From contig JAKQSI010000021.1 in assembly GCA_029570205.1 (NCBI GenBank), positions 1 to 64,000 of the forward strand: DNA of 64,000 nucleotides, given 5' to 3'. A program made the translations under genes and the position numbers. Within the stretch, counting starts at the first letter, position 1; each line of letters starts with the position of its first letter. Shown piece after piece: positions 41,542 to 54,966 of this stretch. The stretch comes from Candidatus Omnitrophota bacterium (GTDB taxonomy: Bacteria; Hinthialibacterota; Hinthialibacteria; Hinthialibacterales; JAKPRU01). Under the pieces are notes generated by a model. It did not search any database. It had not been told where the DNA came from and saw only the letters and a program-made list of their open reading frames with translations.

Positions 41542-42603
41542 ATGAAAACACAGAGAAGTTCCATTGTGGCATGGCTTGCTTGCGTTGCGCTGCTTGGCGG
41601 CCTTGTGGGCTGCGGCCCGAAACCGGGAACGGAAACGACCACGGAGGAACCGACAGCTGTGCAACAGCCTGCAGTTAAGGCAGTTCCCGAGCAGCCGGTT
41701 CTGACCCTGACCTGCGCCAGTTTCGCTCCTCCCTCCACGTTTCCGTGTGTGCAGATGGAGCACTGGAAAACGCAAATTGAAACCTGGACCAATGGAAAGG
41801 TGAAAGTGGAGACCCAATCGGGGAAGCCGGATGTCCTGAATGCAGTCATTGCCGGTCAGGTGGATATCGGCAATTTCCCAATCTGGGATGCGCGGCACCG
41901 GTTTCCGGTTTCGGAAGTCATTGATCTTCCGGTCGGGTTTTCCAGCGCGAAAGCGGCAACGCTGACATTTTATCATCTTATTATGAAGTACAACCCGAAG
42001 GAGTTTGAGAACGTTAAAATTATCACCGTCTTCACATGCCCTCCCTGCAATCTGATGAGCTCCACGCCGATTCGATCCCTGGAGGAATTAAAGGGCATGG
42101 AAATTTTTACCTCCGGTTCGGGAAACGATATTTTGAAATGCCTGGGGGCTGTCCCGCTTGACATGTCGCCGGGTAGCGGTTTCGGGACAGGCGCGGCCAA
42201 AGCGCTCCATTCTTCGTTGGACCTCTTGAAAGACAGGGGATATGCCGAGCAATTCTCGAATGTAACCATGCTCAACCTGCCGGTAACCGCATTCGCCGTG
42301 GTAATGAATGCGGAGAAATGGACCTCGCTGCCGGAGGAACTGAAACCGATCATAGACAATCTTCGGCTGGAGCACGCGATTTGGACGGCGGACTATGTGG
42401 ATGCGCACGCCAAAGAGTCCCTGGAGTGGGCAAAACAACAGCACAACGTACAGGTATTCGATCTGTCCGCAGAGGACCAGGCAAAACTCCCCGAACTGGT
42501 GAAACCTGTAATCGACGACTACATTGCCCGCGCCAACGCGGCCGGCCTCCCTGGCGAGCCGATTCTCCAGGATGTCCTGGCGGCAAAGGAGCAGTTTAAG
42601 TAG
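41542..42603 (+). CDS. TRAP-transporter (DctP-like) substrate-binding lipoprotein
   Basis: 353 residues. Lipoprotein signal with LVGC lipobox near residue 24, followed by a Thr/Glu/Pro-rich linker. The binding fold follows: LTLTCASFAPPSTFPCVQMEHWKTQIETWTNGKVKVETQSG (DctP opening, read in two parts), NAVIAGQVDIGNFP, STPIRSLEELKGMEIFTSG, and LNLPVTAFAVVMNAEKWTSLPEELKPII. Binds an organic acid or similar solute outside the inner membrane. The usual membrane partners DctQ and DctM are not adjacent; upstream and downstream genes are unrelated. So the binding protein is an orphan here. Confidence 0.88.
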   Translation: MKTQRSSIVAWLACVALLGGLVGCGPKPGTETTTEEPTAVQQPAVKAVPEQPVLTLTCASFAPPSTFPCVQMEHWKTQIETWTNGKVKVETQSGKPDVLNAVIAGQVDIGNFPIWDARHRFPVSEVIDLPVGFSSAKAATLTFYHLIMKYNPKEFENVKIITVFTCPPCNLMSSTPIRSLEELKGMEIFTSGSGNDILKCLGAVPLDMSPGSGFGTGAAKALHSSLDLLKDRGYAEQFSNVTMLNLPVTAFAVVMNAEKWTSLPEELKPIIDNLRLEHAIWTADYVDAHAKESLEWAKQQHNVQVFDLSAEDQAKLPELVKPVIDDYIARANAAGLPGEPILQDVLAAKEQFK

Positions 42604-42744: not shown

Positions 42745-43659
42745 TTACAGCATCGCGCATGTCTGCATCCATCGGATGGCGCGTTCCAGGGATTGCTCGG
42801 GGGTGTATTTCGGTTCATAGCCGAGTAATCGAGCGGCCTTGCGGATGTCGGGGCATGTATGTGCTTTGAAATGCCAGTACGCGCCGATATCGGTAGAGAC
42901 CTCGGTCGTGTACTTTTCCCATGGCACGTATTCGATGGGAATCTCTGCCTTATAGATCTCCGCGATGGTGCGGATAAACTGGGTTGCAGTAAGCGAGTAG
43001 GCCGACCCGACATTGACAATCTCCGCTGAGGCGGGTTTGGGATTTGTGGCGGCGGCCACGAAGAGTTCCGCGATATCATCGGCATCGCAGGGTCCGATGA
43101 GAGACTCGGCACCTTCGGGCAGAACAACGGTTTCCCCGGCGGCATGAGCGCGATGAACCGCCAGGCTTCGACCGCCCATCCCTTCCAGGGGAATCTTGCC
43201 GGGACCGCAAATATTCGGCGGCATGATGGCGGTGAATTGAATGCCTTCCCTCTTGGCGTTTCGAATATCCCGCCGGATATGGTCAAACCGTCGCGCATAA
43301 GAGGGAAACGGGCAGGGGATAGTCTGCGCCTGTTCCGGAGTCGGCACAACTTTCGGCTCGCCGTACATCCACGTCGAGCCGCAGACGAGGATGTGTTTGG
43401 CGTGGGTATGAAAAAGTCTATAGGTATGCTCTTTGCCGAGCATGTCGATAACCGTGTCAAAGAACACATCCTTTATTTCCATTGGGAGAGAATCGCACGA
43501 ATAATCATGTCGGACATATTGTGCGCGTTCCCAGACAGGATCGTCCGGCATCCGGGTCCGTCCGGAACTGAGTACCGTTACCTGAATTCCCCTGGCGAGA
43601 AGTTTCGGGACCAGATGCAAACCGACATGGCCTGTTCCGCCGACGACAAGGACTTTCAT
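42745..43659 (-). CDS. NAD(P)-dependent nucleotide-sugar epimerase/dehydratase-like protein
   Basis: 304 residues. ATG 43659 with GGGAGGT upstream; GTG 43677 would overlap the previous gene. Extended SDR fold: MKVLVVGGTGHVGLHLV (NAD loop GGTGHVG), TVIDMLG, ILVCGSTWMYGEP, MPPNICGPG, DADDIAELFVAAAT, and a C-terminal substrate part. The catalytic YxxxK is not found at its normal place (YARRFDHIRRD has Arg), so classic epimerase chemistry is doubtful; it may be a reductase or binding protein. Last gene of an operon of three with the isomerase at 43674 (14-base gap) and oxidoreductase at 44450. The space 42604-42744 shows nothing clear. Confidence 0.85.
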   Translation of the reverse strand: MKVLVVGGTGHVGLHLVPKLLARGIQVTVLSSGRTRMPDDPVWERAQYVRHDYSCDSLPMEIKDVFFDTVIDMLGKEHTYRLFHTHAKHILVCGSTWMYGEPKVVPTPEQAQTIPCPFPSYARRFDHIRRDIRNAKREGIQFTAIMPPNICGPGKIPLEGMGGRSLAVHRAHAAGETVVLPEGAESLIGPCDADDIAELFVAAATNPKPASAEIVNVGSAYSLTATQFIRTIAEIYKAEIPIEYVPWEKYTTEVSTDIGAYWHFKAHTCPDIRKAARLLGYEPKYTPEQSLERAIRWMQTCAML

Positions 43660-43673
43660 CGTTACCTCCCGGT

Positions 43674-44450
43674 TCACCCCTCGGCTTTGGTTATATATCC
43701 TTCAATTAAAGATTTCGCCTCGGTGATATACGCCTCACTGTTTTCGTAATCGGCAACCTCCAATTCCAGCGAAATGTATCCGGTATAGCCCTTTTGATGA
43801 AGGCGCCTTAAAATACCCGGATTGTCGGTCCGGCCTTTACCGATCATTACGGATTGAGTACCGATATGATCTTTCAGATGCACGTGGCGGACCCGGTCGG
43901 CAAATCGCTCGATCAATGCGGGAATATCTACCTGCGAGGATGTGAAATGCCCTGTGTCGATAGTCATTCCGATATTCGGCGAGTCGATGGCTTTGAAAAT
44001 GGCTTCGTAGTCTTCGGGAAATTCGATCTGATTGTTGTAGTGGTTCTCAAGGCAAAGAGTTACATTAGCCGCCTGGAGATAGGGAACCAGCGTTCGATAG
44101 GCCTTAATCGCCGCATCCAGCGGTTCTTCGCGACGGCTTCCGGTGAACACAATGCGGGAGACCCCGAGCTCGCTGGCTGTCGAAATCGCTCGTTGGATGT
44201 AATTCAGGCTTTTCGCGATGGTTTCATCGGATTGTGTATCAACTCCGCCGGGATATAAGGCGATCAGTTTCATCCCGTGGGCGGAGACGGCCTTTTCCAG
44301 CGCGTTGGGGGACATTTTGTTGAGATCAACATGAATCCAGGTTGGGATTGCGATCAATTCCAGATCCCTGTACCCGGCTTTGGATGCAATGGACAGCATC
44401 TGTTCAAAAGGATGTTTGTGCAGACAGACAGAGCAGAATGCAAGTTTCAT
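43674..44450 (-). CDS. Sugar phosphate isomerase/epimerase (AP-endonuclease-2 fold), cytoplasmic
   Basis: 258 residues. TIM barrel with the metal-ligand pattern of xylose-isomerase-like enzymes: LCLENHYNNQ, GMTIDTGHFT, RVRHVHLKDHIG, YISLELEVADYENS. Start ATG 44450 has AGGA six bases upstream and shares one base with the stop of the preceding oxidoreductase gene. Likely isomerises or epimerises a keto sugar made by the neighbour Gfo/Idh/MocA enzyme. A Tat-exported member of the same fold is encoded at 46312. Confidence 0.9.
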   Translation of the reverse strand: MKLAFCSVCLHKHPFEQMLSIASKAGYRDLELIAIPTWIHVDLNKMSPNALEKAVSAHGMKLIALYPGGVDTQSDETIAKSLNYIQRAISTASELGVSRIVFTGSRREEPLDAAIKAYRTLVPYLQAANVTLCLENHYNNQIEFPEDYEAIFKAIDSPNIGMTIDTGHFTSSQVDIPALIERFADRVRHVHLKDHIGTQSVMIGKGRTDNPGILRRLHQKGYTGYISLELEVADYENSEAYITEAKSLIEGYITKAEG

Positions 44451-45460
44451 CAGGATTCCTCCACTTGGGGTAATTCGAGGGGATGGGTAGGGTCATGTTC
44501 CAACCAGTCCACAATGCGCATCACCGCCACACCGTCATCCGCATTGGGAACAGGGCATCGACCGGCCAGTACGGATTCCGCGAAATGAATCACCTCTCCG
44601 GCATAGCCCTGGAACCAGAGATTGTTCTGGTTGAGATTGGGGATGGAGAAGTCGGGGCGGTAAGTTTGGATGTCGGACAGTTCGATATTTCGATCCAGCC
44701 CATTGCAAGATGAACGGTGGACTTCAAGATTCACGAGATTGTCTACAACGATCAGCTGCCTCTCGCCGGTAATCTCGACACGCTCCTGGACACGCGGCTG
44801 CTGAGCGGTGGAAACCAGGTTGCCGACCGCACCGGAATGGAATCGGGCGGAAATGGCAAATGAATATTGCCCGCTCCGAATGTTCATCTCTGCCGTAAGA
44901 CGCACATAGTCCCCCATGAAAAACCGCACCAGGTCGATGAGATGAACGCTCATATAGACAAGGTGGTCGTGCAGACAATTCATATTCCAGTGCCCGTAGC
45001 GTGCAAAAATGTGTGTGGGGTAACCGAACGCCGTTTCCGACATCAGCGTTTTTGCCCGGGAATAGGTGTCGGCAAACCGCTTCATAAATCCGATCATGCA
45101 GGCCCGTCCGGTTTCGCGGGCCGTTTCTTGAATCTGCCGGGCCTGGACCAGGTTGTCTCCAGGAGGTTTCTCCATGAATACGTGTTTCCCGGCACGCATG
45201 GCAGAAATTGCCACAGAGGTGTGAAGCGAAGGCGGTCCGACAACAAATACGGCGTCGATATCCTTCCGGCCCGCAAGGTCATCCGCTGTCGGGACAATTT
45301 CTTTTGCCCCAAACCGGCGGGCAGCCTGCTCGGCCCGTCCCCGATTCAGGTCGCATACCGCGACCAGCTCAATCGGCGCGAACCGGAGGCTGGGCAGGAT
45401 GTTCAGGCTCGCGTGATATCCGCATCCGACAAATCCGACACGAACAAGGGATTGAGGCAC
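44450..45460 (-). CDS. Gfo/Idh/MocA-family oxidoreductase, cytoplasmic
   Basis: 336 residues from GTG 45460, which has AGGAGA ten bases upstream and places the NAD loop (RVGFVGCGYHAS) at the N-terminus; TTG 45514 would add 18 residues. VAVCDLNRGRAEQAARRFG, VVGPPSLHTSVAISAMRAGKHVFMEKPPG (EKP motif with catalytic Lys), and the C-terminal beta sheet domain (RYGHWNMNCLHDHLVYMSVHLIDLVRFFMG). NAD-dependent oxidation of a sugar or inositol to a keto form. First gene of the three-gene minus-strand operon ending at 42745. The intergenic space to the pilin holds a divergent promoter (45586). Confidence 0.9.
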   Translation of the reverse strand: MPQSLVRVGFVGCGYHASLNILPSLRFAPIELVAVCDLNRGRAEQAARRFGAKEIVPTADDLAGRKDIDAVFVVGPPSLHTSVAISAMRAGKHVFMEKPPGDNLVQARQIQETARETGRACMIGFMKRFADTYSRAKTLMSETAFGYPTHIFARYGHWNMNCLHDHLVYMSVHLIDLVRFFMGDYVRLTAEMNIRSGQYSFAISARFHSGAVGNLVSTAQQPRVQERVEITGERQLIVVDNLVNLEVHRSSCNGLDRNIELSDIQTYRPDFSIPNLNQNNLWFQGYAGEVIHFAESVLAGRCPVPNADDGVAVMRIVDWLEHDPTHPLELPQVEES

Positions 45461-45585
45461 CGTCGGTACATCTCCTGATTTCGTAACTGGCAACCGTGGA
45501 GGAGTGTATGTCAAAACCCGGCGGTGTCAATGCAGTCAAGACATTTCTCCGAAGCCGAGGTCGGAGGAAATCTCCTCATATCGGC

Positions 45586-45694: not shown

Positions 45695-46264
45695 ATGCGT
45701 CGAGCGTTTACCCTGATCGAACTCCTGATTGTGGTGGCCATTATCGGGATTCTGGCGGCAATTGCCGTCCCGAACTTCATGAACGCCCGAATCCGTGCGC
45801 AGATTTCCCGTGCGCAGGCGGACATGAATGCCATTGACTTGGCGCTGACTTCCTACCGGATGGATACGAACACCAAAAGCTATCCCCGCTTCAACAACAT
45901 CACCTGGCCCGGACGCTGGTCATATCTCACAACCCCTGTTGCTTATATCTCCAGTGGAGCCTTTACCGATCCGTTTTTCCCCAAGGGACGTTTGACAAAT
46001 GACGGCGATAAACCAATTTATTATTACGAAACCTTCGACCCATTCTACGGGCAGACATTCAAGCGGGATCTCTTCTACCAGGTCTTCGGACGATACAAAA
46101 ACATAGACGGGTATGATTATTGGATCGGCTCAGCGGGACCGAATGGCTATATCAATGGGGATGCCGGGCCACCGGCTGAGTTCTGCCCCTGCGACATCTA
46201 TTTTGAATACGATCCCTCAAACGGCTTGAAAAGCAATGGAGACATCACAAGGCTGGGAAAATAG
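45695..46264 (+). CDS. Type IV pilin-like protein, pilin 2
   Basis: 189 residues. ATG 45695 with CGGAGG 8 bases before. Very short leader MRRA, then FTLIELLIVVAIIGILAA; the residue before the cleavage site is Ala rather than the usual Gly, as is common in planctomycete-like prepilins. Then NFMNARIRAQISRAQADMNAIDLALTSYRMDTN, closely like pilin 1 in layout. Ends YDPSNGLKSNGDITRLGK, parallel to pilin 1. Monocistronic by its own promoter and a terminator at 46301. A pilus or pseudopilus subunit; no assembly genes next to it. Confidence 0.9.
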   Translation: MRRAFTLIELLIVVAIIGILAAIAVPNFMNARIRAQISRAQADMNAIDLALTSYRMDTNTKSYPRFNNITWPGRWSYLTTPVAYISSGAFTDPFFPKGRLTNDGDKPIYYYETFDPFYGQTFKRDLFYQVFGRYKNIDGYDYWIGSAGPNGYINGDAGPPAEFCPCDIYFEYDPSNGLKSNGDITRLGK

Positions 46265-46300: not shown

Positions 46301-46326
46301 ATGGCTGCCGGTCACCCGGCAGCCAT
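46301..46326 (+). terminator. Rho-independent terminator behind pilin 2
   Basis: ATGGCTGCCGG (46301-46311) and CCGGCAGCCAT (46316-46326), an 11-bp perfect stem with loop TCAC, followed by TTTTCTCG. It overlaps the last codons and stop of the convergent isomerase-like gene. Confidence 0.8.
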
Positions 46327-47193
46327 TTTCTCGAATAATTCCCGTTGTCGGATCAGTGCCTGCACGCGGTCTTTCCTGACTTCCGGTGTGTTGCTGCTGG
46401 CCTCCAGCAATATCCAGCCGCTGTATTGGATCCCTTTGAATAAGTCCAGGAGTTTCTGGAACGGATAGTCCGCAGTATCCAATTCCCGAACGTGAGCGGT
46501 TGATCCAAAAAGGTCCTTGACCAGATTGAAATTGTATTCGAGTCCCTGCCCTTCGAGATCTTGCCGATTACTGTTCCAGCAGATTCGCACATTGGGGTGG
46601 TCAGCCACATCCATGATCGCCTTCATCGTCGGCAATTCAGCGCATTCGCCGTGGACTTCCAGACGAATCTGCTGTCCGTAATCCTGCGCGAAAGTCCCCA
46701 GCTGATTCAGGCTCTTGCCGATTTGCTCGATGGTTTTTTCGTGTGGGACCCCGACATGGAACGAGTTCGGTTTGACCTTGACACCGGAGCCGCCGACATC
46801 GCGGCTGAGGATTACAAAGGCTTTTGACGCTTCGATGGATTTTTTCAGTGTCTCCGGATCGGGAGAGTCGAAGTTCTCATTGCTGCCGATGCCGACCAGA
46901 GTGATCGGGCTGTCCTCAAACCGTTTTTTGACCTCGCGACGCTGTTGGTCGTTGAGAGAGGGTTCCACCCCATGTGCGTGGGTAGTGCGCAGTTCTACAC
47001 CAAAAACTTTGGCTTTCTCCAGGTTGGCGAGCAAAGTCGGCAAATCCCAGTCCTTACCCCATTGGTAAGTTACCATGCCGAACCTCATTTTCGATTCGGC
47101 AGCATAAGCGGAATGCTTACTGCAAACGCCTGCCAGGGTGGCAGCGCAGGCGGAAGCCAGGAAATCGCGGCGATTAAGAGAGTTCCGGGCCAT
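46312..47193 (-). CDS. Tat-exported sugar phosphate isomerase/epimerase-fold protein
   Basis: 293 residues. ATG 47193 with AAAGGA upstream. Twin-arginine signal NRRDFLASACAATLAG at the N-terminus. TIM barrel of the AP-endonuclease-2 type: MRFGMVTYQWGKDWDLPTLL, KVFGVELRTTHAHG, IRLEVHGECAEL, RICWNSNRQD, HVRELDTADYP, SGWILLEASSN. Metal-ligand positions (E in LEVHGE, N/D in NSNRQD, H/E in HVRE, E in LLEAS) are in place but not all match the usual E-D-H-E set. Probably isomerises or binds a sugar in the periplasm. Forms with the Tat-exported genes at 47429 and 48947 a cluster. Start divergent from 47429. Confidence 0.88.
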   Translation of the reverse strand: MARNSLNRRDFLASACAATLAGVCSKHSAYAAESKMRFGMVTYQWGKDWDLPTLLANLEKAKVFGVELRTTHAHGVEPSLNDQQRREVKKRFEDSPITLVGIGSNENFDSPDPETLKKSIEASKAFVILSRDVGGSGVKVKPNSFHVGVPHEKTIEQIGKSLNQLGTFAQDYGQQIRLEVHGECAELPTMKAIMDVADHPNVRICWNSNRQDLEGQGLEYNFNLVKDLFGSTAHVRELDTADYPFQKLLDLFKGIQYSGWILLEASSNTPEVRKDRVQALIRQRELFEKMAAG

Positions 47194-47428
47194 CTTGAGT
47201 CCTTTCTTAAGCAGTGCAAAGTTCTTTTCTCCCCCATCTTAATCCAAACCCCGCGCTTGCCAAGGCAGGTATGTTCAAGCAGGTCATCTTTTTTCTCCTT
47301 ATGGCCTTTGGAGCATTCGATTTCCGCGCCGCCCACAGTGGCCTGAACCGCGACGGGATGGAAGATCTCGCCAAGTTGCTTCAACCGGGTATAATGTCCG
47401 CTCAGATTCAAAACACAGGAGTGCGTAA

Positions 47429-48760
47429 ATGATACAAAAAATCGATCCAAAGAACGACCGACGTCATTTTTTGAAAACAAGCGCGACCGCTCTCGCCGCC
47501 GCACAACTGATGGGAACCGGGGCTTGGGCCGGTGCGAATGAAAAAGTTCGGGTAGCTGTCGTTGGAGTCCACGGTCAGGGGCGGACCCATATCCGGAAAT
47601 ACCTGGAAATCAACGAGGCGGAACTCGTGGCTCTCTGCGATGTGGATCAAAGTGTTCTCGACAAAGCCTGTGAGGAATTGATTGTCAGCAAAGGTTTTCC
47701 GAAGCCGAAGCTCTTCTGGAATTACCGGGAACTGCTGGAAGACCCCTCTATTGACGCGGTCAGTTTTGCCACCCCGAACCATTGGCATTCGCTTCAGGCA
47801 ATCTGGGGCTGCCAGGCCGGGAAACATGTGTACGTGGAAAAACCTCTGTCGCACAATATCTGGGAAGGGCGACAACTGGTGAAAGCCGCGCGCAAATACA
47901 ACCGCATCGTTCAGCACGGGACAAACTCTCGATCTTCCGACGGAGTTCGGGAGGCCGTTCGCCTTCTCCGGGAGGGAGTCATCGGCGATGTCTATATGGC
48001 GAAAGGCCTTTGCTATAAGTGGCGGGATACGATCGGGCACACTCCGGATGAGCCGGTTCCGCCCGGAGTTCATTACGACCAGTGGATCGGCCCCGCCCCG
48101 GAACGCCCTTTCAGCCGCAACCGGTTCCATTACAACTGGCACTGGCAGTGGCCCTACGGAAATGGAGATATCGGCAACCAGGGAATCCACCAGATGGATG
48201 TCGCCCGGTGGGGACTCGGAGTGAAATTGCCCGGCAAAGTTCAGGCAATGGGGCGCCATTTCATGTTCGATGATGACCAGACAACGCCGAATGTTCTCCT
48301 GACCTCGATGGAATACCCCGAGGAGGAAAAGATGCTGGTGTTCGAGGTTCGCCATTGGATTACAAATCATGAGGGCCAAATCGGCAAAGGCCCAGACAAC
48401 ACAACCGGTAATCTCTTTTATGGTTCGGAGGGCTATATGGTTATTGAGGGCGATTCATATCGAACCTGCCTGGGCAAGGAACGCAAGCCGGGTCCCAGTG
48501 GAAGTGGCGGTGGCAATAACTGGCAAAACTTCATCGATGCCGTCCTGAGTGGAAATCCCATAAAGCAGAATGTGGATGTCGAAGATGGGCATCTTTCCTG
48601 CGTCTTGTTCCACTTGGCGAATATCGCCTATCGGGTGGGACGAACGATTGAAGTCGATGTCCAGAACGAAACTGTGAAGAACGACACCGATGCCCAGCGG
48701 CTGGTCAATGATGGAGATCGTGGGTATCGGGAGCCATACATCGTTCCGAACGAGGTATAG
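47429..48760 (+). CDS. Tat-exported Gfo/Idh/MocA-family oxidoreductase
   Basis: 443 residues. AGGAG seven bases before ATG 47429. Tat signal NDRRHFLKTSATALAAAQLMG. NAD domain with VRVAVVGVHGQGRTHI, VALCDVDQSVLDKACEE, DAVSFATPNHWHSLQAIWGCQAGKHVYVEKP (EKP). C-terminal domain with NWHWQWPYGNGDIGNQGIHQMDVARWGL, the signature of the large secreted group of this family in planctomycete-, Verrucomicrobia- and Bacteroidetes-type genomes. As cofactor must come folded across the Tat system, tightly bound NAD(P) is expected. Oxidises an unknown sugar; may work with 46312. Upstream, TATAAT at 47390 is a possible -10 without a clear -35. Confidence 0.92.
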   Translation: MIQKIDPKNDRRHFLKTSATALAAAQLMGTGAWAGANEKVRVAVVGVHGQGRTHIRKYLEINEAELVALCDVDQSVLDKACEELIVSKGFPKPKLFWNYRELLEDPSIDAVSFATPNHWHSLQAIWGCQAGKHVYVEKPLSHNIWEGRQLVKAARKYNRIVQHGTNSRSSDGVREAVRLLREGVIGDVYMAKGLCYKWRDTIGHTPDEPVPPGVHYDQWIGPAPERPFSRNRFHYNWHWQWPYGNGDIGNQGIHQMDVARWGLGVKLPGKVQAMGRHFMFDDDQTTPNVLLTSMEYPEEEKMLVFEVRHWITNHEGQIGKGPDNTTGNLFYGSEGYMVIEGDSYRTCLGKERKPGPSGSGGGNNWQNFIDAVLSGNPIKQNVDVEDGHLSCVLFHLANIAYRVGRTIEVDVQNETVKNDTDAQRLVNDGDRGYREPYIVPNEV

Positions 48761-48786
48761 CAAGGCCAACAGACACAGAGACCTGT

Positions 48787-48814
48787 CCTGCCGGCAGGTC
48801 AGGCGTCCCTCCCT
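48787..48814. repeat. Dispersed repeat copy with 12-bp palindrome
   Basis: CCTGCCGGCAGG (48787-48798) is a perfect palindrome, and its right half runs into GGTCAGGCGTCCCTCCC (48797-48813), a relative of the repeat arms at 2029-2050 and 54963. It lies 27 bases behind the stop of the oxidoreductase gene. Confidence 0.6.
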
Positions 48815-48946
48815 GACAATTCCCCCGCCTGACAATTTGCCCACGACAGGGAGTGTGATATCATACCTCGCTTTATCTCAGAATACCCCTTGGCAACGAT
48901 CCTGTGTCAGCCGCAGGAAATGGCAACAAGGGAGGAGGACAGACGA

Positions 48947-50938
48947 ATGGTAGAACATGAACATCACGATGGGTGCTGCCTTTGCTCGATTTCGCGGCGG
49001 AATTTTCTGGCCGCGTCCGGAGCGATCCTGGCCGGGCCGATGATCGCCGCCGCCGCGCGGGGCGGGGCCGGGGATTCCGATTTGGGGGCGTATATCGACT
49101 TGGCTGAATTTCGACCGAAGCCAAAAGTGCGCATTATGGGCGTGGTGGTCCGTCAGAAGCCTCCCTATTGGCTTGGCTGGCCGGGCACCTCCTATGACCT
49201 GGAGGGTCACCGCAAGGAATACCGCAAGGCGTTCACAGAAGCAGCCGAACGGCTCGGCGTGGAATACACCGAAGACGATCAACCGAAAGAGAGCGATCAG
49301 GCGGTTGCCGCCTGTGTGGAGCAACTCAAACAGGCAAAGCCGGATGCCGTATTGGTTCATATTCAGCATCTGAGCTATTGGCATTGGGCGGGTGCCATCG
49401 CGGATGCCGGTCTCCCAACGATTATTTTCGCGCCCATCGGCACGGCCTTTACCGGACAGGTCCTGGAAATCTCCCGCCATCCCAAGGTGCATGTGGTTTC
49501 CTCTCTGGAAGTCGGCGCCGTAGAGCAGGCTTTCCGCATGATTCGCGCGAAAAAACAGCTGGAGGAAACACGGCTGCTTGTTGTTGCGGGAGAGAACCGC
49601 AGCGAGCAGGTTCTCGAGCGACTGGGAATTACGGTGAAATACATTCCAAGACGGTCTCTTCACGAGTTGTTTGAACAGATGCCGGAGACGGACGAGGTCC
49701 GTGATGTGGCCCGCAGGATGCGACGCGGTGCGGAAAAAGTGGTCGAACCCTCCAAACAGGATATTCTCAATGCCGCGCGGTCGTACATTACAGCCAAGCG
49801 CTTGCTGAAAGATGAGGGCTGCAACGCCATCACAACCGACTGTCTCGGCATGGTCACCACCAAGGTCGTCCCAACCCCTCCCTGCATGGCGGCGACTCTG
49901 TTCCAGGATGCCGGAATCACTTACGGCTGCGAGGCGGACGTCTTCGCGGCGGTCTCGCTGCTGCTGGTCAGCTACCTGTTCGACAAGCCGGGATTCATGC
50001 AGGACCCGGTTCCGGAAACGGTCAAGAATCTTCTGATAGGCGCGCACTGTACATGCGGCACGCGCTTGAATGGATTCGATCAACCCCAGGAGCCATATAT
50101 TTTGCGATCCCATTCCGAATCGAACATTGGGGTAGCGACACAGATTCTGTGGAAAGTGGGACAGCCGGTGACCCTGGTTCGATTCCAGAATCCCAATGAG
50201 CTGATTCTGGATACCGGCACGGTGGTCGGGAATGTGCAGACCCCTCCCGCAGGCGGCTGTCGCACCAGCGTCGAAATCAAGATGGACCGTATAGAAGACG
50301 CCCGCGATGTGATGGGATTTCATCAGGCGATCTTCTATGGCAACCATCGTCGGGATGTTGAGGCCTTCTGCCAGATGTATGGAATTCGGTTTGTCAATTC
50401 TCCTGAAAAGGCTCCGAGTTGGATGGGAAATCTCAATACGATTACCTCGTGGAATATCATCGGTCCGTTCGATAATACCGATCGAAAGGGACACAATACG
50501 GTTTATCCGCCGGAGCAGGAAATCGATCTCGGCATGACCTGCCAGGGAGTTGATGGCCCCGCGAAATGGAAACAAATTTCCGCACCGGAAGGGCGGGGAT
50601 ATGTCAATCTGCTTCCTTACTTCAAGACAACCGAATGGACCACCGCGTTTGCTCTGGCTTACCTGCACGCAGACAAGGATATGGACGCCCAACTTCGGGT
50701 AGGAAGCAACGACAGCATCAAGGTCTGGCTTGCGGGCCAACTGGTCCTGGATCGTCCGCAGGAACGAGGCGCTGTTCTTGATGACGATATCATCGCGGTG
50801 CGAATCAAGGCCGGCTGGACTCCGGTTCTGCTCAAAGTCTCCAATACCGAGCATGGCTGGGGTTTCTATTTCCGTGTAACAGATCAGCAGGGCAATCCGT
50901 GCAAAGGGGTGAAATGCGCCTTGTCTCCCCAAGTGTGA
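48947..50938 (+). CDS. Tat-exported L-fucose/arabinose isomerase-like protein with C-terminal beta-sandwich
   Basis: 663 residues. ATG 48947 with GGAGGAGG upstream. N-terminus MVEHEHHDGCCLCSISRRNFLAASG: a His/Cys-rich stretch before the twin-arginine motif SRRNFL. Residues about 45-470 read like the FucI/AraA fold: VRIMGVVVRQKPPYW, AKPDAVLVHIQHLSYWHW, NAITTDCLGM, TPPCMAATLFQDAGITYGCEADVFAAVSL, GAHCTCGTRLNGF. From about 500 a separate domain (SWNIIGPFDNTDRKG, YPPEQEIDLG, RVGSNDSIKVWLAGQLV, WGFYFRVTD) common as an appendage in secreted proteins of this group. Isomerases of this fold are normally cytoplasmic and bare; export and fusion suggest a periplasmic sugar-processing or sugar-sensing role. 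Confidence 0.85.
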   Translation: MVEHEHHDGCCLCSISRRNFLAASGAILAGPMIAAAARGGAGDSDLGAYIDLAEFRPKPKVRIMGVVVRQKPPYWLGWPGTSYDLEGHRKEYRKAFTEAAERLGVEYTEDDQPKESDQAVAACVEQLKQAKPDAVLVHIQHLSYWHWAGAIADAGLPTIIFAPIGTAFTGQVLEISRHPKVHVVSSLEVGAVEQAFRMIRAKKQLEETRLLVVAGENRSEQVLERLGITVKYIPRRSLHELFEQMPETDEVRDVARRMRRGAEKVVEPSKQDILNAARSYITAKRLLKDEGCNAITTDCLGMVTTKVVPTPPCMAATLFQDAGITYGCEADVFAAVSLLLVSYLFDKPGFMQDPVPETVKNLLIGAHCTCGTRLNGFDQPQEPYILRSHSESNIGVATQILWKVGQPVTLVRFQNPNELILDTGTVVGNVQTPPAGGCRTSVEIKMDRIEDARDVMGFHQAIFYGNHRRDVEAFCQMYGIRFVNSPEKAPSWMGNLNTITSWNIIGPFDNTDRKGHNTVYPPEQEIDLGMTCQGVDGPAKWKQISAPEGRGYVNLLPYFKTTEWTTAFALAYLHADKDMDAQLRVGSNDSIKVWLAGQLVLDRPQERGAVLDDDIIAVRIKAGWTPVLLKVSNTEHGWGFYFRVTDQQGNPCKGVKCALSPQV

Positions 50939-50959
50939 TGAACCCCTTTCAACAGTCAC

Positions 50960-51001
50960 TCCGCCCATCTTCTTGTCAAAAGGGATGGGCGGATTTGTTT
51001 T
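50960..51001 (+). terminator. Rho-independent terminator behind the isomerase-like gene
   Basis: TCCGCCCATC (50960-50969) pairs with GATGGGCGGA (50984-50993), a 10-bp stem with a 14-base loop, followed at once by TTTGTTTT. It lies 22 bases after the stop. Confidence 0.82.
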
Positions 51002-51092
51002 GAGGGGATGATTGTTATGGAGACCTTCCTGTGCGAATATGCAGCGATTCGCAATTTGCCTCCGCATTCTCTCATCACGTAAGGAATGGGCC

Positions 51093-53930
51093 ATGCAAAC
51101 ACTCTCTTTCTTTCTCACCGCGATAATGCTCGCTGTTCCTCAGCCATCGCCACGGGAACGAATCGATACATTTCTGGACACCACTCTCAAAGAATGGCGA
51201 TTCTATCCCGGTGAATTCCATGGTGCTGAACAACCCGATATTGACGATTCATCCTGGGAACAGGTGTCCATCGGGCATTGCTGGTTTCCGCATGATTCCA
51301 CATGCTGGTTTCGCACACGCATCCAGGTCCCGGAAACGATCATGGGATTCCCGACGAAAGGCAAACGACTCCGACTGCTTTGCGGGATCGACAATGAAGG
51401 GGTTGCGTACGTCAACGGAGAGAAGAAAGGGCAGTTTATTTGGGGAGATGGGGACATTGTTCTGACCGAACAGGGAAATCCCGGTGAGACAATCACCATC
51501 GCTCTGCATGGAATCAACCGTGCGGGATACGGGAAATTCATCCATGCCTATATCGGCTCCGACGAAAGCCTTCAGGTTTACAGGGCGTTCAAGAAAATCC
51601 TGGGCGACATCGATCTGATTGAAACCCACCTGACTGAACAGGACACGGCATGGCGGACAGCCATTCAGAAAGTATATGAAACAATAGATGTCGATCGGAT
51701 CGACAAATCCGACTCCCGACTCGAATCGATGCTCGCAATGCTGAATGATGCCGATGGGATTCTGTTGCAGGTGACACAGTCCGTTCCGGAGCGGCTTTCT
51801 TCTCTCGAAAAGGGCCGTGACCAATTGGAAAGCAGGTTGGAGGAAGGGAGATCGAAGGGGCTCGCGATGGATTATGTTCGTCTGAAAGCGCGAGTCCTGA
51901 GGAGTTTTATTGAATATGCGCGAGAGGATTATGCAAAAGAGGGTTTCTGGATGAAAGCGCGCGCGGAACGCACGGTTGCCTGCTTGGAGGGTTTAACACA
52001 GAAGGCGCTTTATGAGGTCGGGGATATCCTGGCTCACCCCGAAAACGACCATCCTGTGCCGCGATATCGAACGGGTGAGATCACCATTCGAGACGGGGCG
52101 TTTTGGCAGGGGGATCGCCCGGTCTATTTCAACGGGATGGGGCATTTCGGGCAGGTGCGTAAAGACATCCCGATTTTCCAGGACTATGGGATGAATATCA
52201 TTCAGACCGAAATCGGCCCGAACAGCGTTGTTATGGAGGATGGGTCCCTCAAACTGGATCGACTGAAGGAGACCATTCTGAAACCCCTGGAACAGGCAGA
52301 GCAGTATAATGTGGCCGTCTGTGTGTTGCTTTCGCCGCATTATTTTCCCGAATGGGCAATGAAAAAATATCCCGAACTGGCAGAGGCCGGTCACGGCTTT
52401 ATAGAGTATGACATTGACCATCCGGTTGCCCGCGAAATTATCGAGAAGTTCCTGCGCGCAGTCGTGCCGGAAATGGCCCGCTACAACTCGCTTCACAGTC
52501 TCTGTTTGTCGAATGAACCGGAATATGTGAGTCGAACCGAGGTCTCCGCGAAACTATTTCATCAGTGGCTCCGGGGTCGCCACGGCAGCATTGAGAAATT
52601 GAATGCACTGTATGGAACGTATTACGAAAGGTTTGAAGATGTCCCGCAGGCAACCCGCGAGTTCTGCAATCCGGCCTTTGTGGACTGGTGCGAGTTCAAC
52701 CAGGAGCGGTTCTGGGGCTGGCATAAATGGATGGCAGACATCATTCACAAGTGCGCCCCCGATATTCCCGTTCATGCAAAGAGCATGGCCCATTCCTGGC
52801 GAGGATGGGAGAGTTTTGAACTGGGGGTGAATCACGAGGAGTTTGCCCGCTTGGGACGCATTACCGGAAATGACTGCTTTGTGCAGCCGACCCGCCAACA
52901 GGATTATCCTTATGCACAGCACTGGATCGTTCAGGCGATGCACTATGGTTTCCAGCATAGCGTCGCGCCTGAACAGCCCATCTTCAATTCCGAAAACCAT
53001 TTGATTCCGGATGACAATGCGGTCTTTACACCGGGCGAACATATTTACACAGCTCTCTGGGAGGGGGCGATCCAGGGGATGGGCGCGTCAACAATCTGGG
53101 TCTGGGAGCGCGAGGAAGGGAAGACCCTTTTCGACAATATCCTGACCCGACCGGGCTGCGTGGAGGCTGCCGGACGAGCCGGCCTGGACCTGATGCGCCT
53201 GGCTCCGTTGGTAGCAGCACTGGCGAATGTCCCGCCGCAGATCGGGCTGTTTCATGCATGGCACAGCAATGTCCGCACGAACGACACTCGCGATGCCTCA
53301 ATCATGGCGTATGAGGGATTGGCCAACCTCGGCGTCCCGATTCGAATCGTTACGGAAAAAACAATCCGGCAGGGCGCGTTGAACGACTTGGCCATTGTGG
53401 TCGCCGCCAAAACCGACTGGATCCACCCGGAAACCGCTCCCCATTTTGCCGATTTTGTTTCCAAAGGCGGAGTTCTATTTGTGATCGAACCATGTTTCTC
53501 ACGGGACCAGTACGGACGCACAAATCCGGATTTGTCGGCCTGGATGAATGAACCGGAACAAATGGGGCGAATTGTCCGCCTGGATACGCCGCTAACTGCA
53601 TTGGCGATTCGAGACCTGGTCGGCGGGCAATTGAAAACAATCGGGCGCGGAACCCCGGTTCCTCTGATGGATGCGTACGGGGATCCTCTTTGGGGCGTTT
53701 TGTGGCGGGTACTCGATGATGGAAATCGATATGTTGTCGATGTGGTGAATCAGCGGCGGTCTCCCCAAACGATTCGGCTACCCTTGCAATCGGGAGCGAT
53801 CATAACCGACCTTATATCCGGTAAGTCGTTCGGAAACTCATTTGAATTGCCTCCGCTCCACCCCATGTTGCTTGAGGTAATGAAAGAAGATATCCCTCGA
53901 ATTGTACCGGTTCAAGAACCGATTTTTTGA
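51093..53930 (+). CDS. Secreted GH42/GH2-like beta-glycosidase
   Basis: 945 residues. ATG 51093 with AAGGA 8 bases upstream; short signal MQTLSFFLTAIMLAVPQPSP. A jelly-roll sugar-binding domain (20-160: WEQVSIGHCWFPHD, WFRTRIQV, VAYVNGEKKG) and a helical linker (165-330) are followed by a GH-A clan barrel (about 340-720). Acid/base Glu475 lies in LCLSNEPEY and nucleophile Glu634 in IFNSENHL, the spacing expected of GH42-like enzymes. Then a trimerisation-like domain (DASIMAYEGLANLGVPIRIV, LAIVVAAKTD, GGVLFVIEP) and a C-terminal beta domain. Likely cleaves a beta-linked glycan outside. The exported nitrilase gene follows 28 bases on. Confidence 0.85.
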   Translation: MQTLSFFLTAIMLAVPQPSPRERIDTFLDTTLKEWRFYPGEFHGAEQPDIDDSSWEQVSIGHCWFPHDSTCWFRTRIQVPETIMGFPTKGKRLRLLCGIDNEGVAYVNGEKKGQFIWGDGDIVLTEQGNPGETITIALHGINRAGYGKFIHAYIGSDESLQVYRAFKKILGDIDLIETHLTEQDTAWRTAIQKVYETIDVDRIDKSDSRLESMLAMLNDADGILLQVTQSVPERLSSLEKGRDQLESRLEEGRSKGLAMDYVRLKARVLRSFIEYAREDYAKEGFWMKARAERTVACLEGLTQKALYEVGDILAHPENDHPVPRYRTGEITIRDGAFWQGDRPVYFNGMGHFGQVRKDIPIFQDYGMNIIQTEIGPNSVVMEDGSLKLDRLKETILKPLEQAEQYNVAVCVLLSPHYFPEWAMKKYPELAEAGHGFIEYDIDHPVAREIIEKFLRAVVPEMARYNSLHSLCLSNEPEYVSRTEVSAKLFHQWLRGRHGSIEKLNALYGTYYERFEDVPQATREFCNPAFVDWCEFNQERFWGWHKWMADIIHKCAPDIPVHAKSMAHSWRGWESFELGVNHEEFARLGRITGNDCFVQPTRQQDYPYAQHWIVQAMHYGFQHSVAPEQPIFNSENHLIPDDNAVFTPGEHIYTALWEGAIQGMGASTIWVWEREEGKTLFDNILTRPGCVEAAGRAGLDLMRLAPLVAALANVPPQIGLFHAWHSNVRTNDTRDASIMAYEGLANLGVPIRIVTEKTIRQGALNDLAIVVAAKTDWIHPETAPHFADFVSKGGVLFVIEPCFSRDQYGRTNPDLSAWMNEPEQMGRIVRLDTPLTALAIRDLVGGQLKTIGRGTPVPLMDAYGDPLWGVLWRVLDDGNRYVVDVVNQRRSPQTIRLPLQSGAIITDLISGKSFGNSFELPPLHPMLLEVMKEDIPRIVPVQEPIF

Positions 53931-53958
53931 CATTATCCCATAAAGAGGTAATGAGTAA

Positions 53959-54966
53959 ATGACTCGATTCGGTCGTGGAAGTATTCATCAACAGATCCTT
54001 GCTTTAAGTATCGTTACAATGATGTGCGTATGCCCGACATACGGCGCATCGGACGAAAAAGAAACGCAAGATAAGGAGAAGACCTTGATTACAGTAGCTT
54101 TGCTTCAGATGTTGCCCAAAGAGAATGACCGGCAGGCGAATCTCGTAAAGGGAGAGGAGTATTGCAGGCGGGCCGCCGCCATGGGGGCGGATATTGCTCT
54201 CATGCCGGAGATGTGGAGTAACGGTTATTCCGGCCTGGAAGACAAATCGGAAGAGGCTATTCGGGAATGGCAGTCCCGGTCGGTCCCGCGTGACGGCGAA
54301 TTTGTGGGGCATTTTTTGAAACTGGCCGGGGAACTCAATATGGCTATCGCCGTGACTTACCTGGAAACCTGGGAGAAAGCCCCCAGAAATACGATGACCC
54401 TGATCGACCGGCATGGCAAGATGGCGCTGACCTATGCAAAAGTGCATACCTGTGACTTCGGATTGAACGAGGCTGTCTGTACGCCCGGTGAGGATTTCCC
54501 TGTGTGCGAACTTGGTACGGCACATGGTTCCATTCGGGTAGGCGCGATGATCTGCTATGACCGCGAACAACCCGAAAGCGCGCGCATTCTCATGCTCAAC
54601 GGCGCAGAACTGATCCTGGTTCCGAATGCCTGTACTCTCCGCCACATCTTTGTCGATCAACTTCGGATTCGGGCGCTGGAGAATGCCTTGGCTGTTGCGA
54701 TGACTAATTACCCCGCGCCCAAATTCAACGGCAGTTCCGCAGCGTTCACTGCCGGCGGGGACCTTATTGTCGAGGCAGGAGACGCGGAAGGGATTTATCT
54801 CGCGCCGTTTGATTTTGAGAAAATTCGCGAAAACCGCCGGAAAACCATCTGGGGCAATGCATTCCGCAGACCGCACCGATATCAGGCGCTACTGGAAAAC
54901 CACGGCCCGGATGTCTTCAAAAGAAATAACGCGCTCGACCAACCATTCCGGGTGGAAGAACGGTAG
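53959..54966 (+). CDS. Exported carbon-nitrogen hydrolase (nitrilase superfamily)
   Basis: 335 residues. Signal peptide (HQQILALSIVTMMCVCPTYGA). Catalytic triad is complete: Glu84 in LMPEMWSNGY, Lys161 in YAKVHTCDFG, Cys199 in MICYDREQPE; the additional Glu near 170 is present. The family splits amides, nitriles or ureido bonds. An exported member next to glycosidase genes may remove an amide or N-acyl group from a sugar or peptide part of a glycoconjugate (inference). The TAG stop is the first codon of a dispersed repeat (54963-54982). Confidence 0.9.
   Translation: MTRFGRGSIHQQILALSIVTMMCVCPTYGASDEKETQDKEKTLITVALLQMLPKENDRQANLVKGEEYCRRAAAMGADIALMPEMWSNGYSGLEDKSEEAIREWQSRSVPRDGEFVGHFLKLAGELNMAIAVTYLETWEKAPRNTMTLIDRHGKMALTYAKVHTCDFGLNEAVCTPGEDFPVCELGTAHGSIRVGAMICYDREQPESARILMLNGAELILVPNACTLRHIFVDQLRIRALENALAVAMTNYPAPKFNGSSAAFTAGGDLIVEAGDAEGIYLAPFDFEKIRENRRKTIWGNAFRRPHRYQALLENHGPDVFKRNNALDQPFRVEER

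Follow-up and report, generated by a model that had tools for sequence, protein, structure and literature searches.

A genus-level cluster of putatively exported sugar enzymes in a Candidatus Omnitrophota bacterium includes an unusual relative of arabinose and fucose isomerases

The analysis described here concerns five neighboring genes (A to E) within a 64,000-nucleotide stretch of Candidatus Omnitrophota DNA (the window), which we read, at about even odds, as a cluster particular to the genus, whose exported enzymes would break down a glycoside or oligosaccharide extracytoplasmically, in a manner akin to the periplasmic 3-keto-glycoside route. Most parts of the cluster are ordinary for this genome; the unusual part is gene C, a new element of the cluster, whose sequence marks it as an uncharacterized, presumably exported relative of arabinose and fucose isomerases in which an unusual set of cysteines is conserved. 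The features are as follows (window positions, strand).

46312..47193, minus: gene A, Tat-signal TIM barrel (AP_endonuc_2) of the ketose-epimerase / 3-keto-sugar lyase-hydratase fold (PF01261, 63 bits; AlphaFold model)
47101..47193, minus: Tat leader of A, NRRDFLASACAATLAGVCSKHSAYA, read from the sequence, end approximate
47429..48760, plus: gene B, Tat-signal Gfo/Idh/MocA oxidoreductase (PF01408, 74 bits against a cut-off of 24; NF058561, 168.5 bits; PDB 8tdf/8tdh)
47429..47533, plus: Tat leader of B, DRRHFLKTSATALAAAQLMGTGAWA, read from the sequence, end approximate
48947..50938, plus: gene C, Tat-signal L-arabinose/L-fucose-isomerase-fold protein, SRRNFLAASGAILAGPMIAAAA (AlphaFold core, extending to about 50415)
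48947..49060, plus: Tat leader of C with a Cys-rich stretch ahead, HHDGCCLCSISRRNFLAAS, end approximate
50417..50938, plus: C-terminal beta domain of C (domain search and alignment of relatives)
51090..53930, plus: gene D, GH42/GH167-like clan-A hydrolase (PF02449, 54 bits; PDB 6ptm and 9whd)
53959..54966, plus: gene E, putatively exported nitrilase-superfamily amidase with Glu-Lys-Cys motifs (PF00795, 118 bits; motifs read)

All five genes are present in the window at the coordinates originally predicted, and the families then assigned to them are supported. Gene C likely starts at ATG 48947, behind GGGAGGAGG, rather than at TTG 48890, and ATG 51090 is the likely start of gene D. Gene A diverges from B at a distance of 235 bp; lying on the opposite strand, it cannot share one operon with the other four, so that an operon would comprise B-C-D-E at most, with D and E separated by 28 bp. 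Promoter and terminator scans gave counts at chance level only. Beside gene A lies a prepilin-type N-methylation match (45695-46264), one of 82 in the 4.39-Mb genome, and a similar pilin adjoins an A-B-like pair in another genome (G006, L175). At 42745-45514 on the minus strand, co-directional genes for an NAD-dependent epimerase, a xylose-isomerase-like TIM barrel, and a Gfo/Idh protein, overlapping or adjacent, have no Tat leaders. The original prediction held that no import gene is found here, which is true in that no permease gene was seen near the TRAP-type solute-binding protein DctP (41542-42603, plus strand), but the presence of DctP itself, 4 kb from the cluster, means that import genes are not wholly absent.

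Convincing standard Tat leaders, each composed of an RR motif, a hydrophobic stretch, and a cleavage-like end, were read on A, B, and C, in agreement with the earlier claim of RR motifs on three neighboring genes, and TatC is encoded in the genome. The leader of E is of the ordinary Sec type. On the basis of these sequences, A, B, and C are predicted to leave the cytoplasm through Tat and E by way of its Sec-type signal, the latter in line with the export previously proposed for the nitrilase. The N-terminus of D, though hydrophobic, lacks positive charge, making its signal peptide weak; of the secreted GH42-like hydrolase put forward earlier, the GH42-type family is retained, whereas the secretion is poorly marked. 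Since RR leaders are routine in this genome, three such genes in a row represent a modest rather than a striking excess. The Tat route is well suited to enzymes folding around a nicotinamide cofactor, as with GFOR of Zymomonas. A Cys-rich stretch stands just ahead of the RR motif in many C-type Tat leaders (CCLCSISRR, CGCCPVSRR, and MCTHCTRR), including that at window positions 48965-48990.

The AlphaFold model of A (mean pLDDT 87) superposes with VIA Z scores of 24-28 on ketose 3-epimerases, YcjR, DgpB-DgpC, and AtHYD, and its profile likewise matches AtHYD, YcjR, and DgpB/C as well as ketose epimerases. Because the Z scores are nearly equal for ketose 3-epimerases, a 3-keto-glucoside 4-epimerase, C-glycoside eliminase subunits, and a 3-keto-glucal hydratase, the reaction of A is not readable from its fold. 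The metal set consists of Glu179, Asn207, His234, and Glu264; throughout the A family, Asn occupies the position where Asp is usual. For B, the top named model is the glycoside 3-dehydrogenase NF058561 (BT_2158), whose curated cut-off of 750 bits is not reached, and the match to PDB 8tdf/8tdh has an E value of about 1e-34; the lysine of the EKP motif and the His are kept, with Asn replacing the Asp of the Asp-His pair of 8tdf. All named-enzyme models (NCBIfam) for the cluster genes scored far below their cut-offs.

Gene content, leaders, TatC, folds, residue conservation, and genus-level linkage are observations, from which we infer the reactions, substrates, and their order in the predicted pathway. 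D would act on a polymer or oligosaccharide, taking off a terminal sugar, and B, proposed to be sent through Tat because it is folded with NAD(P) bound, would oxidize a sugar or glycoside, with C3 as the most likely position. The resulting keto-sugar may be eliminated, hydrated, or epimerized by A, the released sugar may be isomerized by C via a metal site, and E may cleave an amide in this or a different substrate. The logic resembles that of the 3-keto-glycoside routes (PMC11300592, PMC9007349, PMC7676230, PMC10628242): BT2158, the characterized member of the family that NF058561 describes, is a periplasmic glycoside 3-dehydrogenase required for disaccharide use (PMC11300592), levoglucosan use involves 3-oxidation, elimination, hydration, and reduction by Gfo/Idh and TIM-barrel enzymes (PMC7676230), and enzymes of the same two types are used in flavonoid glycoside cleavage (PMC10628242).

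The genome (4.39 Mb in 131 contigs) was surveyed by profile searches and reading of gene starts, which gave 73 Gfo/Idh, 31 TIM-barrel, and 10 C-type places. By a strict rule, Tat leaders are present on 44 of the Gfo/Idh, 14 of the TIM-barrel, and nine of the 10 C-type proteins; a few Gfo/Idh and two TIM calls are doubtful by eye, so that about 42 of 73 and about 12 of 31 (range 12-14) are the safer figures. With so many leaders on such families, exported sugar enzymes are a theme of the whole genome. In eight cases, a TIM-barrel and a Gfo/Idh gene are no more than about 1.5 kb apart, against 2.1 expected (P ~0.001, assuming uniform placement and ignoring operon structure and contig ends); three of these pairs are inside the window, one of them consisting of A and an adjoining non-Tat Gfo gene. 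Elsewhere, the two domains are fused in a single reading frame (G000:C109:30583-31698, L073). C-type genes outside the window have no clear linkage to Gfo or TIM genes, their proximity being near chance. The 14 genome matches to DUF1080 (PF06439) are all on contigs other than that of the cluster (C8); one, a 3-keto-disaccharide hydrolase match on contig G000:C42, has a C-type paralogue about 350 bp away on the same strand.

Among the relatives, the congener G001 has the order B, CinA-like gene, C, D, E, with 85-89% identity for B-C-D-E; the inserted CinA-like gene (L045, 10907-12208, minus strand) has a leader-like N-terminus, the gene upstream of B is by eye N-acylglucosamine 2-epimerase-like, and A was not found in this assembly. 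In the congener G002, one short contig carries A together with B, and a second carries C (3′ part) along with D and E. In the rest of the class, every genome searched has an orthologue of A and several have one of C; orthologues of D occur in two genomes (identities of 61% and 37%) and an orthologue of E in a single one. Outside the genus, the A, C, D, and E orthologues occupy separate contigs or unrelated neighborhoods; an RR motif is missing from the start of at least three of those of A (L065, L066, and L068), and the E orthologue in G006 has a Tat leader. The five-gene set is thus a genus-level assembly. The co-occurrence of the three Tat families in related genomes, which the original prediction offered as a check, ends at the genus boundary: further out, orthologues are unlinked and some A proteins are leaderless. 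The lack of linkage there also rules out one pathway unit conserved across relatives. On a Candidatus Chlorohelix plasmid (L184), genes of the same three families, for an SftI-like isomerase-family protein, a Gfo/Idh protein, and a sugar phosphate isomerase, run in one direction with a sugar ABC permease adjoining.

The pathway reading is favored by the three Tat leaders, the Sec-type leader on E, TatC, the best model of B, the excess of TIM-Gfo pairs, and the C109 fusion, and further by the DUF1080 neighbor on C42, the Candidatus Chlorohelix trio, and the congener linkage in G001 and G002. Against it stand the position of A on the other strand and the failure to find it in the G001 assembly, the unlinked orthologues beyond the genus, the lack of DUF1080 in the cluster, the Asn of B for the Asp of 8tdf, the models below cut-offs, and the fact that no route for NADH re-oxidation outside the membrane is visible. 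Nearly as likely, though somewhat short of an even chance, A to E are independent exported enzymes brought together by chance or local shuffling and serving no single pathway. In its favor, Tat leaders abound on all three families in this genome, orthologues or close homologues of each of the five genes are solitary elsewhere in the class, and C-type genes elsewhere in the genome are linked to Gfo or TIM genes only near chance. It is less easily reconciled with the C-D-E order kept in G000, G001, and G002 and the B-C linkage kept in G000 and G001 (85-97% identity), with the 28-bp gap, and with TIM-Gfo pairing above chance.

Gene C had no match in a Pfam search, and a PDB sequence search with C alone returned nothing, but the alignment profile of the C family (24 members, down to about 21% identity to C) did match. 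The AlphaFold core, with pLDDT mostly >90, is modeled close to AraA and FucI (VIA Z 27 over 410-420 residues, rmsd 4.7-4.8, 13-14% identity). The earlier description as fucose-isomerase-like is therefore apt for the L-arabinose/L-fucose-isomerase fold, but C is not a canonical fucose isomerase. Nor is it SftI (NF048012), for which it scores 27.8 bits against a cut-off of 700 (Tat paralogues, 16-61). The RR motif is found in 23 of the 24 aligned members, the remaining row being truncated, and members occur in records labeled Omnitrophota, Planctomycetota, Hydrogenedentota, and Acidobacteriales. The C-terminal beta domain of C, modeled with low confidence, was observed in genus-level orthologues only, and similar domains occur at no fewer than 13 other places in the genome.

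All 24 members share, without exception, Cys318, 332, 347, 387, and 457, together with His386 and His478; E. coli AraA has none of the five Cys at the corresponding positions. Profile alignment to this enzyme equates Glu348 with Glu306 and His386 with His350, and places His478 at or beside His450; in the separate FucI alignment, for which hhalign covered the C-terminal His region only, His478 corresponds to His528. We take the AraA and FucI residues aligned here to be metal ligands. Three of the four AraA ligand positions (Glu306, Glu333, His350, and His450) are thus kept: Glu348 is Glu in 22 members and otherwise Gln or Asp, whereas the Glu333 position is changed to Gln, Asn, Ser, or Gly. All five Cys recur in a Bacteroides finegoldii protein that lacks a recognizable leader, and four of them in a Candidatus Chlorohelix protein, indicating that the Cys set is not simply an export mark; export-linked disulfides are less likely, given the leaderless Bacteroides member. 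Tentatively, we regard the C family as uncharacterized, mainly Tat-exported proteins of isomerase fold, in which Cys residues beside the old metal ligands may support a different, possibly redox or keto-sugar, extracytoplasmic reaction. It is also conceivable, if doubtful, that C is no isomerase at all and that its fold serves a binding or redox function, with the five invariant Cys holding a metal or doing thiol chemistry; their absence from AraA and the altered Glu333 position point that way, but the retention of Glu348, His386, and His478 at the positions of Glu306, His350, and His450 does not. This alternative concerns C alone and is compatible with either reading of the cluster.

The D protein matches PDB 6ptm (E 2.4e-44) and the GH167 structure 9whd (E 4e-38) over about 540 residues, keeping in both alignments the two catalytic Glu of GH167, whose roles are described in PMC6923384. 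That B-C-D-E act on a sulfated or anhydro galactan (carrageenan-like) is improbable: D resembles BovGH167 and another GH167 structure over that length and GH167 releases beta-neocarrabiose (PMC6923384), but the match is distant and confined to the C-terminal part of D, and no sulfatase gene was recognized in the cluster. In E, the motifs MPE, YAKVH, and ICYDRE were read.

To our knowledge, few systems perform nicotinamide-dependent sugar chemistry outside the cytoplasm, and sugar isomerases are normally cytoplasmic; judging from its leaders, the present genome appears to encode dozens of exported oxidoreductases and isomerase-fold proteins. Within it, the C family offers a clear testable target, as a widespread, putatively exported clade with its own invariant residues and no assigned reaction.

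The cluster is worth comparing with known systems. It shares with the Bacteroides 3-keto-glycoside route (BT2157, a DUF1080 hydrolase, and BT2158) an exported Gfo/Idh dehydrogenase among sugar enzymes, but it has no DUF1080 gene, contains an added C-type protein and nitrilase, and its B reaches 168.5 of the 750 bits. In common with levoglucosan LgdA-B1-B2-C and the AtOGE/AtHYD operon, Gfo/Idh enzymes are combined with a TIM-barrel lyase/hydratase; those systems have two TIM barrels and two oxidoreductases, whereas the cluster has one of each, both with export leaders. D matches the GH167 carrageenan exo-beta-galactosidases in the catalytic and C-terminal parts, including both catalytic Glu, although the match is distant, D has an extra N-terminal part, and no carrageenan genes were recognized nearby. 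Finally, C has the whole-core fold of L-arabinose/L-fucose isomerases and the sulfoquinovose isomerase SftI, with three of the four AraA metal-ligand positions, but is set apart from them by its Tat leader, the five invariant Cys, the altered Glu333 position, and the genus-level C-terminal beta domain.
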